From Melioribacteraceae bacterium (GTDB taxonomy: Bacteria > Bacteroidota > Ignavibacteria > Ignavibacteriales > Melioribacteraceae): a stretch of 46,654 nucleotides of DNA. The DNA is taken from contig WGCV01000036.1 in assembly GCA_015493615.1 (NCBI GenBank), forward strand, positions 1-46,654. Direction: 5' to 3'. Made by a program: the position numbers and the translations under genes. A model generated the notes under the pieces. The model searched no databases. It was given only the letters and a program-made list of their open reading frames with translations, and was not told the DNA's origin. Numbering within the stretch: the stretch's first letter is position 1; every line of letters begins with the position of its first letter. This document shows, one piece after another, positions 8 to 46,457 of this stretch.

Positions 8-1360
8 TTACTTCATCAAAATCATCTTCTTTGTTGCGCTGAAATTTCCTACACGTAATGTGTAGAAGTAAACTCCGCTTGGTAATCCGCCGGAGACGGA
101 GCTTGCGTTGAATTGAACCGAATATTTTCCCGGTGATTGTATTTTGTTTACAAGCGTGGCAACCTTGCGTCCGAGTGCGTCGTAAACTATTAAACTTACA
201 TTGTCATTGCGAGGAGCTTGCGACGAAGCAATCTCATTATTTGCTAACGATTCTTGAGATTGCTTCGCTCCGCTCGCAATGACGTAAGAAATTGTCGTTG
301 TAGGGTTAAACGGATTGGGGTAATTCTGTTCAAGGACAAAATCTTCCGGTTTTGTATTATCTTCATTCTCTACTCCGGTAAGATACCAGTTAAGAAGCGG
401 GTCTAAATTATACGAATTTCCATCCTGACAGTTTGCAACAAGCTTCGGTCCGTATGTGTTTTCAACAGGCGTAGAGCTGAACTGAACGCTTCCGAAATAA
501 GCTCCGTTTTTAAGAAGTTCGCCCTGAGCGACCCAATTATAAACTTCTATTGCGGAGCTATAATAACCCGCATTTGCCGAATCGGCGAACTGCGTTGAGC
601 CGACATAAAAGCAATAGAGTTCTTGAAAACTGTAAGTCCCGAAACTTCCGCTTGCGGAGCTGTTGTTGTGAACATGGCGTTCGTGTACATAAAGTCCGTC
701 GTTGCTGCTGTATGCGTTATGAATTGTTTCTCTTTCGTTGATATTAAAATTTACCGTGGCGGAGGAAATAGTTCCGGTGTATTCATCATAAAAATCACCG
801 AAGGCGTAGCCGCTTCCTACTTCAAGATGCTTAAAACCGTAAGTTGTAATATTTGTTGTTACTGAATTTTCATTATATTCGGTATCGCCGGTAATTGTCC
901 GGTTCCATTCAGTCTTATCTCCATTGGGACCTGTCTGGCTTTGCACTCTTAAATTTAAGGAACCGTTTATTACGGAAACAAAATCCATTACATGATTATC
1001 AATGAAATCCTCGGCATCTCCTTCAGTATAACCGTTAATTGTTGTGAAAGTGAAACTGATTGAACTGCCGTTTGCAAAAATTACAACCAGCTTATCTGTT
1101 GGAGACGAGGAATAAGTCCAATAATTAGGATTTGAAACGCTTTGTGTTAATGTTCCTGTAATTGTCGGAGTGTTTGTTAATTCGCTTGCGAGCCAAACAG
1201 CCTGAACCGAAAGTGTTATCAAATCTTTCGATTGTTCGATAACATCTGCTCCCCCGTTATAAAGTTCGTCAATTATCTGAGATGTGGATTGTGAATAAGC
1301 AGATATAGAAAATAGAAAGAGAAATAAAAAAACTGATTTGAATTTATTAATACTTTTCAT
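8..1360 (-). CDS. Exported protein with type IX secretion C-terminal sorting domain
   Basis: A 450-residue protein. A hydrophobic N-terminal signal peptide (about residues 1-23, ending near AYSQ) would send it through Sec. The middle, about residues 25-335, is rich in Ser, Thr, Asn and Gly, as in a secreted beta-rich protein; I do not recognise a domain there. The last 100 residues are a Por/type IX sorting domain: NYPNPFNPTTTISY, then VYDALGRKVATLV, then a Lys-rich KKMILMK end. Such domains take proteins across the outer membrane, after which they are usually cleaved and anchored or released. The oddity is an insertion of about 27 residues (from ASGAKQS to APRND) between two sorting-domain strands, encoded by a palindromic repeat at 202-284. 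A GGGAAAAAG stretch lies just before the ATG at 1360. The exported role is well supported; the activity is unknown. Confidence 0.85.
   Translation of the reverse strand: MKSINKFKSVFLFLFLFSISAYSQSTSQIIDELYNGGADVIEQSKDLITLSVQAVWLASELTNTPTITGTLTQSVSNPNYWTYSSSPTDKLVVIFANGSSISFTFTTINGYTEGDAEDFIDNHVMDFVSVINGSLNLRVQSQTGPNGDKTEWNRTITGDTEYNENSVTTNITTYGFKHLEVGSGYAFGDFYDEYTGTISSATVNFNINERETIHNAYSSNDGLYVHERHVHNNSSASGSFGTYSFQELYCFYVGSTQFADSANAGYYSSAIEVYNWVAQGELLKNGAYFGSVQFSSTPVENTYGPKLVANCQDGNSYNLDPLLNWYLTGVENEDNTKPEDFVLEQNYPNPFNPTTTISYVIASGAKQSQESLANNEIASSQAPRNDNVSLIVYDALGRKVATLVNKIQSPGKYSVQFNASSVSGGLPSGVYFYTLRVGNFSATKKMILMK
202..284. repeat. Palindromic repeat inserted in frame in a coding region
   Basis: The ends are inverted repeats of about 35 bp: GTCATTGCGAGGAGCTTGCG at one side, and the complement of GTCATTGCGAGCGGAGCGAA at the other. 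The loop is a short AT-rich stretch. The same family reappears at about 33347-33500. Here it lies within the sorting domain of the first gene and keeps the frame, so it is translated. Confidence 0.85.
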
Positions 1361-1435
1361 CTTTTTCCCGCTATTGTTTATTATGTCAGAGCAGAGCAGA
1401 GCTACCCGGCTCCAAAAAACATTAATTTATAAAGA

Positions 1436-1595
1436 CCTTTGCAAAACCTAAAATTGTCATATTGAGTTCGCCTTGGCGAAGTCGGAAGCCATCCGAAATA
1501 TCTCTAAATTCAGTACTATTACCGGTTTTGAGATTCTTCTCCCGCTCCGCCGTGGCGGAGGATCAGAATGACAAATTTTGGGATTATGCAAAGCC
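1436..1595 (-). repeat. Dispersed terminal-inverted-repeat element, copy A
   Basis: About 160 bp between two sorting-domain genes. It begins CCTTTGCAAAACC and ends with the complement of GGCTTTGCATAATCC; the two ends pair over about 28 bp. The core carries the conserved stretches CCGAAATATCTCTAAA and ACCGGTTTTGAGATTCTTC. Two extra hairpins sit inside (1467-1480 and 1545-1560). Copies B (22456-22598) and C (33514-33656) have the opposite orientation; copy D (about 46152-46273) has the same orientation. There is no room for a transposase, so it is a non-autonomous MITE-like unit. Confidence 0.85.
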
Positions 1596-1616
1596 TTCTT
1601 ATAATGACTGATTTTT

Positions 1617-5055: not shown

Positions 5056-5062
5056 TATTTTG

Positions 5063-5422
5063 TGGAGGTGGCGGGAGTTGAACCCGCGTCCGAGATTACC
5101 TATCAGTGAACCGCTACGTGCGTAGTTTGTTGATCAAGTTTCGCAATGATAACCTCAGCAAACAAAGGTCGGCATTGCTATTCCGATAAACCCGCTTACG
5201 CGGATTCGCCTTGCCTACTCGGAAGCTCGGTTCGGCTATCGCTCTTTACGGCGTTCTCTCTTATCTCAGAGCGAAGGGATAAGGAGAACGGCTGCGTATT
5301 ACTTACGCAGCTAAGGCGTAATTAGATTCGCCAGTTATTGTTTTTCCGCCGTTTAACGTGTCTGCGGAACACGGCACGCGTTTCAAAGACCCGATAATCC
5401 CGTCGAAGCCAATTTCACCCCC
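5063..5422 (-). ncRNA. ssrA: tmRNA (SsrA)
   Basis: About 360 nt. On the minus strand it starts GGGGGTGAAATTGGCTTCGA, the usual tmRNA 5' half of the tRNA-like domain. It ends in a T-arm (GCGGGTTCAACTCCCGC) and an acceptor stem CACCTCC that pairs with the 5' end. The tag reading frame is at 5303-5332 and reads GESNYALAA then TAA, close to the Bacteroidetes form. The terminal CCA is not encoded in full: the acceptor is followed by A-CA-AAA. With SmpB it rescues stalled ribosomes and marks the nascent chain for degradation, to which ClpXP contributes; clpX is at 37710 in this window. A 15-bp palindrome covers the 5' boundary. Confidence 0.96.
5303..5332 (-). other. tmRNA proteolysis tag reading frame
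   Basis: Nine codons plus TAA, giving GESNYALAA. The resume codon is inferred to be GGC by analogy with known tags ending YALAA. Confidence 0.85.
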
Positions 5423-22420: not shown

Positions 22421-22455
22421 TAAGCTCTTTATTTATTTCCTTGTAATTATTTGAA

Positions 22456-22598
22456 GGCTTTGCATAACCCCGAAATTTGTCATTCTGAATGAAGCGAAGC
22501 GGAATGAAGAATCTCAAAACCGGTAATAGTACCAAGTTTAGAGATATTTCGGACGGCTCTCACCGTCCTCAATATGACAATTTTAGGTTTTGCAAAGG
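22456..22598 (+). repeat. Dispersed terminal-inverted-repeat element, copy B
   Basis: 143 bp. It starts GGCTTTGCATAACCCCGAAA and ends TTTAGGTTTTGCAAAGG; the ends are inverted copies. An internal hairpin GGACGG..CCGTCC is present. It is nearly identical to copy C. Its right end covers the last codons and the stop codon of the PfkB gene (22583). Confidence 0.88.
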
Positions 22599-23443
22599 TC
22601 TCTATTTATATGTTTTATGAACAATCCGGCTCCGGTTACTCCTTTTTTAAGAGCCTTTTCAAAACTCTTTTCTTCAAGCCAAGTAGAGAAAAAAACCGCT
22701 CCGAAAAAATCCCCGCACCCGACGCAGGGAGTATTGCTTGTCAACGCGCTATCCGAAAAAGAAAAATTCTTTTTTTCTTCTTCATAATAATAAATAGCCG
22801 CGCCGTATTTCTCGTTTGTTACAATTACTCCCGTAACTCCAACGCTCAGGATGTTCTCTATTATTTCATCTTTCGATTCATCTTCCGTACCGAGAGTCAT
22901 AATTTCCGATTCGTTCGCCTGAATAAAATCAGCGTTTCCGTACCATACTTCGGGATGCGGAACCGGGCGAAAAAACCGCTGCTTATCTTCGCTTACTCCT
23001 CGGGAAAGAGTATGAATATCAATGTAAATAGGACCTTGGAACGACTGCCTTAGTTGATAAAGTTCGTTTATCCCTATTTCAAATCCGGAAACCATGTTGA
23101 TATAAATTCCGTCGTAAGTATCCAAATTCTCAACTGCTTCAATATTCAATTTCCCGGGAATATATTCATAAACTTCCTCCCGCTCCTCATTATCTTTAAT
23201 GTAAAGATGATTGACGGGCATCTGTTCCGTTTTCGGAGAAACAGGAAACTTTATAAGCCGGAAAACCTCTTCGAATAATGAATAATGTTCCTCGGCAAAT
23301 GATGTAACAAGATGAATTTCAGCGTCGGGCAAGTTCGCCATAAAACCGAGAATCGAAAAATAGATTCCTCCGGGATTTGTTTTTACTTCTCCCTTGTAGC
23401 GCACTTTATCTACAACCGAATGCCCGACAACCAAAATCTTCAT
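22583..23443 (-). CDS. PfkB family carbohydrate kinase
   Basis: A 286-residue sugar kinase of the ribokinase/PfkB class. The N-terminal GHSVVDKV, the substrate loop TNPGGIYFS and the C-terminal anion hole with catalytic base VGCGDFFGA (GxGD, Asp245) are visible. It transfers phosphate from ATP to a sugar or nucleoside. The start is the ATG at 23443; a TTG 21 nt upstream is less likely because AGGGAG lies between them. The last residues (about RDLCKT) and the TAA come from the inverted repeat of element copy B, so the native C-terminus was probably replaced. It lies 50 nt after ugd in the nucleotide-sugar operon. The substrate is not clear. Confidence 0.85.
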   Translation of the reverse strand: MKILVVGHSVVDKVRYKGEVKTNPGGIYFSILGFMANLPDAEIHLVTSFAEEHYSLFEEVFRLIKFPVSPKTEQMPVNHLYIKDNEEREEVYEYIPGKLNIEAVENLDTYDGIYINMVSGFEIGINELYQLRQSFQGPIYIDIHTLSRGVSEDKQRFFRPVPHPEVWYGNADFIQANESEIMTLGTEDESKDEIIENILSVGVTGVIVTNEKYGAAIYYYEEEKKNFSFSDSALTSNTPCVGCGDFFGAVFFSTWLEEKSFEKALKKGVTGAGLFIKHINRDLCKT

Positions 23444-23493
23444 TTTAACTGGTTCTCCCTGCAAGGAGAAGAATAAAACACATATTCTTTCCC

Positions 23494-33185: not shown

Positions 33186-33204
33186 GCTTGCCCGCTTCCG
33201 TAAT

Positions 33205-33227
33205 AATTCCCCATCCTACGGAATCCG
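33205..33227. repeat. 23-bp direct repeat, copy 1
   Basis: A 23-bp stretch beginning AATTCCCCATCC, repeated exactly at 33699-33721. The pair brackets the palindromic repeat copy 2 and element copy C. Confidence 0.9.
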
Positions 33228-33346: not shown

Positions 33347-33500
33347 GTCATTGCAAGCGACCAACGGGAGCGCGGCTCCGCCTTAGGCGGACTCACCGGC
33401 ATTCAACCTAAGCCATTAAACCGCTTTTGAATATTCAACAACAGCGCGTTTTCCGGTGAGATTACTTCGTCAGTCGCAAGCTCCTTCCTCGCAATGACGT
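33347..33500. repeat. Palindromic repeat family of 202-284, copy 2
   Basis: The left end reads TGTCATTGCAAGCGACC. The right end, read in reverse, is GTCATTGCGAGGAAGGAGCT followed by TGCGAC and a TAATCTCA block, matching the copy in the first gene. A GC hairpin (33377-33391) and other sequence lie in the middle, so this copy is longer and looks nested. Confidence 0.75.
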
Positions 33501-33513
33501 TTAAATTTAATAA

Positions 33514-33656
33514 GGCTTTGCATAACCCCGAAATTTGTCATTCTGAATGAAGCGAAGCGGAATGAAGAATCTCAAAACTGGTAATAGTACCGAATTTAGA
33601 GATATTTCGGACGGCTTACACCGTCCTCAATATGACAAATTTAGGTTATGCAAAGG
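33514..33656 (+). repeat. Dispersed terminal-inverted-repeat element, copy C
   Basis: 143 bp, with the same length, orientation and hairpins as copy B and only a few substitutions. The ends GGCTTTGCATAACC and GGTTATGCAAAGG are inverted copies. Confidence 0.9.
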
Positions 33657-33698
33657 TTTCTTTAATTAACAAACCGTATGATTTAGGCTGGGTGTAAG

Positions 33699-33721
33699 AA
33701 TTCCCCATCCTACGGAATCCG
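33699..33721. repeat. 23-bp direct repeat, copy 2
   Basis: Identical to 33205-33227, 494 bp away, and followed by a TTCGCCTTGGCGAA hairpin. Copy 1 is followed by a similar hairpin, TCCGCC..GGCGGA. Confidence 0.9.
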
Positions 33722-46151: not shown

Positions 46152-46273
46152 GAGGCGGAGTGTAAGCCGTCCGAAATATCTCTAATCATGTATTATTACC
46201 GGTTTTGAGATTCTTCTCCCGCTCCGCCTTGGCGAAGGATCAGAACGACAAATAAATTGGGTTATGTAAAGCC
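46152..46273 (-). repeat. Dispersed terminal-inverted-repeat element, copy D (partial)
   Basis: It carries GCCGTCCGAAATATCTCTAA and ACCGGTTTTGAGATTCTTCT and the right end GGGTTATGTAAAGCC, in the orientation of copy A. The first 25 bp or so (left inverted repeat) are missing or too diverged. It shares the CTCCGCC..GGCGAAGG hairpin with copy A. Confidence 0.8.
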
Positions 46274-46457
46274 TGCTAATACCTTATCAGTAAAATTCGT
46301 GTAATTTTTGGCAGAACATTTTTAAACGTCCCCTATAGTCCTTTATTGATAAGGGTTTTAGAGATTATTTTTTGTTCAACTTTTTTTCATGTTGTTTCCG
46401 ACTTGTCCATGTTAGGTTTTGTAAAGTTTGCTAATATTTGTTAATAAAAATTAAATT

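Follow-up and report, generated by a model that had tools for sequence, protein, structure and literature searches.

REPs with a CGTC tag are widespread without a dedicated transposase, a matter left as a question by Di Nocera et al. (2013; PMC3733652), and passages of a REP survey (PMC12306157) contain nothing on CGTC movers. In the sections of PMC3733652 that describe them, CGTC/TGTC REPs resemble the hairpin arms reported below in their TGTC or CGTC tag, their A-T-first stem and their arrangement as inverted dimers; heterodimers prevail in two families, and Chlorobi and Bacteroidetes are among the five phyla concerned. The arms reported here differ in having a GA/GA step, a long and changing inner hairpin and a CTC rather than a CCA tail, and in being enclosed by terminal inverted repeats (TIRs) and target-site duplications (TSDs). 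REPs enclosed by TIRs or by larger palindromes have been described before. In H. neapolitanus, CGTC-1 dimers lie regularly within 41-bp palindromes, a larger enclosure as here, and section 7 of PMC3733652 describes no transposase, TSD or mobility for these palindromes. QMITE2 of Coxiella burnetii is, in the part of PMC5896051 devoted to it, a TIR-bounded MITE of 150-190 bp that encloses a REP, has smaller REP-only copies and overlaps gene ends; it differs from the present family in its GTAG-type REP and its direct repeats, which are 7-11 nt long and vary in sequence.

For the ends, the closest described elements belong to the IS5 family. The end of ISNme1 from Neisseria, GAGACCTTTGCAAAA, is identical to one of our copies (copy B) over the initial 15 nt of its right end, read inwards (PMC4596501, Table 2). 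According to the element descriptions in the same paper, two copies of BrickBuilt, a Porphyromonas MITE (ISPg1/ISPg9), carry an IS5-family repeat, GAGACCTTTGCA; both BrickBuilt and ATR, the MITE of ISNme1, are without coding capacity, as here, and have 19 copies each, several times fewer than the present family. By description the contents of BrickBuilt, a 23-bp minisatellite, are unrelated, and its TSDs are irregular, in contrast to the regular 5 bp found here. Our literature searches found nothing on MITEs in Ignavibacteria or Melioribacter, and searches with the motif letters gave none that was relevant among the matches listed. Here we describe a repeat family of a Melioribacteraceae bacterium that is, with a probability of roughly 0.8, an IS5-type MITE moved in trans by a putative partner transposase and enclosing a REP-like dimer.

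Copies in the window

The window, the whole stretch of 46,654 nucleotides that was analysed, is contig C36 of a 3.15-Mb genome in 67 contigs. A sequence-only reading of it had proposed a single repeat family at four places, and alignment of the four copies bears this out with corrected bounds:

Copy A: 1432-1598, minus strand; 167 bp, intact, with two terminal repeats and long variable hairpins in both arms
Target duplication of copy A: TTATA, exact 5 bp at 1427-1431 and 1599-1603
Copy B: 22453-22602, plus strand; 150 bp, intact, with two terminal repeats
Target duplication of copy B: TATTT, exact 5 bp at 22448-22452 and 22603-22607
Copy C: 33511-33660, plus strand; 150 bp, intact, 95% identical to copy B
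Target duplication of copy C: TTTAA, exact 5 bp at 33506-33510 and 33661-33665
Copy D: 46152-46276, minus strand; truncated, left bound approximate, with the core and the right terminal repeat retained

The proposed subgroups also hold: identity is 95% between B and C (150 nt) and 94% between A and D (a stretch of 64 nt), and A and D are oriented opposite to B and C. Copy D lacks the left terminal repeat, so that its TSD cannot be scored; its right end is at 46276, and it matches copies of a sister species from about 46154 on. The family ends are of the GAAGGCTTTGCATAACC type. By eye, the strict terminal repeat spans about 17 bp (GARRSCTTTGCAWAACC) and pairing runs on into the hairpin tags, which accounts for the 28-bp inverted ends of the sequence-only reading.

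Several other repeats lie nearby. Window 46277-46440, which adjoins copy D, and three loci elsewhere (L036, L037 and L039) have similar CTTTGCA ends around unrelated contents (GGACAAGCCGGAA..TTATCAATAAGGG type). At window 203-283 and 33480-33500 there are additional REP-like palindromes, of the GTCATTGCGA type, which elsewhere in the genome have GCAATC tails; palindromes of this type are also carried between family ends in seven elements. A 28-bp direct repeat (96%), GTAAKAATTCCCCATCCTACGGAATCCG, at 33200-33227 and 33694-33721 flanks the region of copy C. The window also contains a tmRNA gene (5060-5422, minus strand; Rfam RF00023, 175 bits), which was the only Rfam match in the window at gathering threshold, with nothing for the elements.

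Copy number in the genome

The genome holds about a hundred or more copies. A 14-mer of the family, GGCTTTGCATAACC, occurs with at most one mismatch at 174 genome sites (83+91; reversed control, 0), so that the terminal repeat greatly exceeds chance expectation, and BLAST of the genome with copy B gave at least 42 matches (the best 40 of 318 candidates scored). Around the places listed for the terminal motif and the hairpin arm (about 100 each) we chose segments that, with other analysed loci included, number 115 and total 352 kb without conflicts, a sample of about 11% of the genome that is biased towards copies. Pairing of ends with an end-to-end limit of 70-420 bp yielded 112 two-ended candidate elements in these 352 kb of 3.15 Mb, including some composite or spurious pairings; 97 contain a core with an ATTCT-type arm, seven a related ATTGC-type core and eight neither. 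Most elements with the ATTCT-type core (88/97) are only 149-192 bp long and have no room for a gene, just as the window copies had been said to have none for a transposase.

Evidence for mobility

An exact 5-bp duplication flanks 64 of the 108 scorable elements, against 6.1 per set when ends are paired by shuffling, and is absent from the other 44. The duplicated target follows TWNWA, with T first in 59/64 and A last in 61/64, and the commonest targets among the 64 are TATTA (11) and TAATA (9). A duplication of 3 or 4 bp had been considered and was replaced by 5 bp after the paired elements were scored.

Insertion sites were compared with the sister species (G004; a neighbouring protein is 96% identical), whose genome we take as the Melioribacteraceae MAG JALWEC01, the match places agreeing. 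When 103 elements were set against 25 loci of the sister species, a test was possible at four sites. Copy B is absent there: its site (gap -5) consists of a single TATTT (L179:2434-2438) between flanks that are 92% and 87% identical. A second empty site, C48:80162 (gap -7), is less clean, one flank being just 80% identical over 103 nt. The two remaining sites, C62:40456 and C52:33106, are filled in both species. With two empty and two filled, some insertions are new (or were lost in the sister species) and some predate the split; the expectation of empty sites in relatives thus held for copy B and one other element and not for the two shared ones.

A 43-bp deletion derivative lies inside a CRISPR repeat with the TSD TTCTA (L036:7969-8011, which is C2:169468-169510; with TSDs, L036:7964-8016 and C2:169463-169515), and the other intact repeats of the array provide the unfilled sequence. 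The array repeat is GTTTCAATTCTAATATAGTTCGATTAAAAT, and by eye two adjoining ORFs resemble Cas2 and Cas1.

The distribution of the ends is patchy. The terminal 14-mer GGCTTTGCANAACC has 99 occurrences in the genome of the window, 37 in the sister species and none in the remaining three congeners, which are 100, 77 and 100% complete. It is present in 21 of 116 genomes, the window's own included, 16 of which have one or two occurrences, compared with 9 in total for a control pattern; further genomes with several are G063 (23), G030 (6) and G110 (4). Several of the elements examined in relatives with these ends carry other cores. We conclude that the copies are TIR-bounded elements that are patchy among congeners and have no coding room, and the mobility suggested by the sequence-only reading is supported by most of the checks it had proposed.

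Putative partner transposase

Twenty-six stretches of named genomes contain the exact pattern of end plus core: 21 belong to the Melioribacteraceae MAG JALWEC01, two to Fodinibius halophilus, two to Balneolaceae MAGs and one to a Nitrospinota MAG. Both short elements of Fodinibius halophilus are two-ended with 5-bp duplications (ATTAA and GCGTT), and no convincing second end was seen at the Balneolaceae and Nitrospinota MAG loci (L056, L075 and L074). Fodinibius halophilus also has a 1278-bp IS in two copies (L189 and L195; 83.7% identical) with the ends GGGAGCTTTGCAGAACCCC and GGGGGCTTTGAATTACTTG and the 5-bp duplications TATTA and TTAAA:

IS5-type transposase of Fodinibius: L189:1444-2433, minus strand

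The IS protein matches PF05598 and PF01609, and scores 240 bits against NF033581 (IS5 family; cut-off 140). By eye, the match between the ends of the IS and of the MITE is incomplete, with 12-15 of 17 positions the same. The similar ends of this IS, its 5-bp TSDs and the end identity with ISNme1 suggest that the partner of the family is an IS5-type transposase.

The sequence-only reading had proposed to look for a transposase flanked by the same ends; one with similar ends exists in Fodinibius, and none was found in the genome of the window. The Fodinibius transposase has a relative of 51% in G030 and no match at E 0.01 in the window's own genome (G000), G004, G063, G110, G031, G044 or G056. 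A profile search of the window's genome found no PF13359; it found four matches to PF01609 and one to PF13586, none with family ends of its own, the PF13586 match being the same C5 fragment, cut by the contig end, as one of the four. The end motif (up to two mismatches) is present at only one of the four PF01609 loci, L031, whose gene (PF14294+PF01609) was rejected as partner since it adjoins a copy and has, by eye, other ends. L032, presumably IS1380-like, has CCCAAAATTGTCAATAG-type ends and was set aside; L033, an IS5-like fragment, is cut off by the end of its contig, and its visible end is, by eye, of another type; and L034 is an IS701-family gene within an array and has different ends (AGTTCTCTTGAGTTTGG type). 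Also rejected were a two-ended 1.9-kb stretch of C2, which proved to combine the 43-bp copy in the CRISPR array with an unrelated end fragment, and a candidate on C3, the ORFs of which are unlike a transposase. Several contigs terminate inside or beside copies, so an IS may have been lost from the assembly. Because the Fodinibius-type transposase was not found, the elements look orphaned in this genome.

The same observations bear on the alternative that the family is a MITE as proposed and that its mover is a transposase of another family with similar ends. In its favour are the fruitless search of the window's genome with the Fodinibius IS5-type transposase and the IS701-family gene situated in an array with the same hairpin dimer. 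That gene is bounded by ends of a different type, however, and the only IS found to combine 5-bp TSDs with a CTTTGCA-type sequence at each end belongs to the IS5 family. We consider a mover from another family unlikely.

Hairpin contents

The core consists of two hairpins with their tags outward. The left arm reads GTC-ATTCT-GA-[variable hairpin]-GA-AGAAT-CTC, and the right arm has the compensated stem ATATT/AATAT. In the intact window copies the arms are as follows:

Left REP-like arm of copy B: 22479-22515, plus strand; GTC tag, ATTCT/AGAAT stem, GA/GA step, variable hairpin and CTC tail; exact pattern match
Right REP-like arm of copy B: 22541-22578, minus strand; stem ATATT/AATAT around a GGACGG..CCGTCC hairpin; bounds by eye
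ATTCT-type REP-like arm of copy A: 1530-1572, minus strand; exact pattern match
ATTCT-type REP-like arm of copy C: 33537-33573, plus strand; exact pattern match

A pattern with GTCA, GA, GA and TCTC fixed and the stem letters free, applied inside elements, found 167 arms, of which 94 are of the ATTCT type, 72 of the ATATT type and one is imperfect; the inner 4 bp of the stem are fully complementary in 166/167, and the reversed pattern gave 0 over all segments. Two stem types that are both complementary indicate a compensated change at two pairs. The exact ATTCT-type arm occurs 99+99 times in the genome (control, 0). Two-ended elements contain 94 of the 140 exact arms in the chosen segments. 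Of the 46 outside, five have one end motif nearby, and others belong to tandem arrays or to pairs of arms that lack these ends. With a third of the exact arms examined lying outside two-ended elements, the MITE is not their sole carrier.

A conserved core with variable internal hairpins had been proposed from the window alone, and the 140 arms contain 62 distinct inner hairpins. These fold better than their own mononucleotide shuffles, with a mean z of -2.32 with RNA and -1.73 with DNA parameters; 38/62 and 24/62, respectively, reach p up to 0.05. Among inserts of 17 nt, 12 of 19 distinct ones in the window's genome fit XX-GNA-YY-GNA-Y'Y'-GNA-X'X' (0.001 expected by shuffling) and 0/2 in viral contigs do, and among 7-nt inserts of viral contigs 10 of 16 distinct ones fit YY-GNA-Y'Y' (0.31 expected), with G-T pairs allowed, related inserts that are not independent, and coverage of these two lengths only. 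The GCGAAGC hairpin is exceptionally stable. As a single-stranded DNA hairpin it has a solved structure, as reported in the part of PMC5430850 concerned with it.

Among 296 genomes of the phylum, the window's own included, 50 have the exact arm (control, 0), which also occurs in at least 120 viral-contig stretches; TIR plus core has no match in viral contigs. Among plasmids 21 records match, none over most of the query, the best being short core matches in Calothrix, Microchaete and Tolypothrix (E 8e-5 to 1e-3); phages gave a single match (E 0.2).

Two arrays carry such hairpins. L086 (C3:33900-34750) has tandem units of about 130-136 bp with one GTCATTCTGA arm each, in which the inner hairpin varies from unit to unit between nearly constant flanks. 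L034 (C52:20451-24050) has its IS701-family transposase gene in a tandem array of about 196-bp units with the same hairpin dimer; the unit boundaries resemble IS ends (AGTTCT..AGAACT) with spacers of about 10 bp, TATTTTATAT. This repeated spacer may simply belong to the tandem unit, and the copy in the sister species (L191) is flanked differently. An IS701-type element is perhaps a second vehicle for the dimer.

We compared the arms with the published description of CGTC-tagged REPs. The published tag is unpaired, adjoins the stem and reads CGTC, TGTC or CCTC, and the tag of the arms agrees: TGTC precedes the ATTCT stem in 30 aligned copies, and CGTC or TGTC precedes the stem of the rarer ATTGC-type arm. 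The published stem has 8-9 bp with A-T as first and second pairs and a loop of 4-5 nt; the arms have the A-T first pairs, yet a 5-bp lower stem, a GA/GA step and a long variable hairpin. The published tail is short, unpaired and mostly CCA, and is CTC in the 30 aligned ATTCT-type copies, on which alone it was judged, the later arm patterns requiring CTC. Because the arms depart from the published stem, loop and tail, we use the term REP-like for them and do not count them among the CGTC-tagged REPs. The sequence-only description as 'MITE-like or REP-like' was right in both halves, the ends being those of a MITE and the contents REP-like.

These contents raise the alternative of REPINs, in which a RAYT (Y1 tyrosine transposase) would move REP pairs as single-stranded DNA and the outer repeats would be incidental. 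The core is indeed a tag-outward pair of REP-like hairpins, the genome has five Y1_Tnp matches (L047, L048, L049, L050 and L051), and by eye decayed element copies flank L048 on either side at no more than a few hundred bases, and one lies about 1.1 kb downstream of L050. However, the conserved unit stops at the terminal inverted repeats with 5-bp duplications outside, and RAYT/IS200-type movement is not known to produce target duplications. The five Y1_Tnp genes, by our reading, adjoin other palindromes, of the CTCCGTAGGAGC, TTAACTGCTTCGCAGTT, CCTTCAAGG, GTAG...CTAC and CCACGG..CCGTGG types. Movement by a RAYT is quite improbable in our estimate, and given the decayed copies some association of these genes with the family is a slight possibility. 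By eye, each of the five RAYT-type genes has short palindromes of its own beside it (CCACGG, CTCCGTAGGAGC, AACTGCTTCGCAGTT, CCTTCAAGG and GTAG-tagged), and several other REP-type systems seem to coexist in this genome.

Gene context

The sequence-only reading had placed the copies next to gene ends. Of the 56 elements whose flanks reach 700 bp or more, judged with mechanical ORF calls, one lies in an ORF, 34 between tandem neighbours, 13 between divergent and seven between convergent ones, and one is at an edge. Neighbouring 3' ends (48) are a median of 74 bp away and 5' ends (60) a median of 209 bp, gaps that stand without a matched background. Nearly all examined insertions are thus intergenic, and a preference for gene ends is suggested. 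An ORF stop lies inside or at the element in 3 of the 56. For copy B:

ORF ending in copy B: 22583-23464, minus strand; last codons and stop within copy B

The product ends in ...GLFIKHINRDLCKT in the window and in ...GLFIKYRNNYKKINKELNERFD in the sister species, where the same ORF continues and, by our reading, overlaps the start of the next gene. Copy B swaps the last residues for RDLCKT and a stop, and insertions can therefore supply a new C-terminus and stop codon. That each copy is instead a fixed functional intergenic element, an RNA hairpin or terminator under selection at its site, is very improbable: whole copies have strong predicted folding, they are intergenic at the gaps given above and two sites are common to both species, but the TSDs, the empty sites, the insertion in a CRISPR repeat and the absence of the end motif from 3/4 congeners speak against it, and the empty site with a single 5-bp target largely refutes it.

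Discussion

We favour an IS5-type MITE that encloses a REP-like dimer. In our working model, the elements are gene-less transposon copies moved in trans, the ends of which would be bound by an IS5-family transposase (NCBIfam NF033581 type) and joined to a target cut with a 5-bp stagger. Present-day movement would need a transposase that was lost from the assembly or that arrives by transfer. The MITE would serve as the vehicle for the tag-outward REP-like heterodimer.

More tentatively, we speculate that TGTC/CGTC-type REP dimers spread as cargo captured between the ends of unrelated transposons and persist because their hairpin grammar is favoured as single-stranded DNA, which is possible and, to our minds, rather less likely to be true than not. 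Vehicles would be the IS5-type MITE here, perhaps a second one around an IS701-type element, and tandem arrays; the favoured grammar would comprise the GA/GA step and GNA-closed mini-hairpins such as GCGAAGC.

With their differing inner hairpins, the numerous copies form a natural series for the study of constraint on the hairpin. A TGTC-type REP-like dimer enclosed in an element with TIRs and TSDs and a likely transposase family makes a hitch-hiking answer to the question of the mover testable, and the family suggests one possible route by which REP-like hairpins, long without a known mover, may spread.
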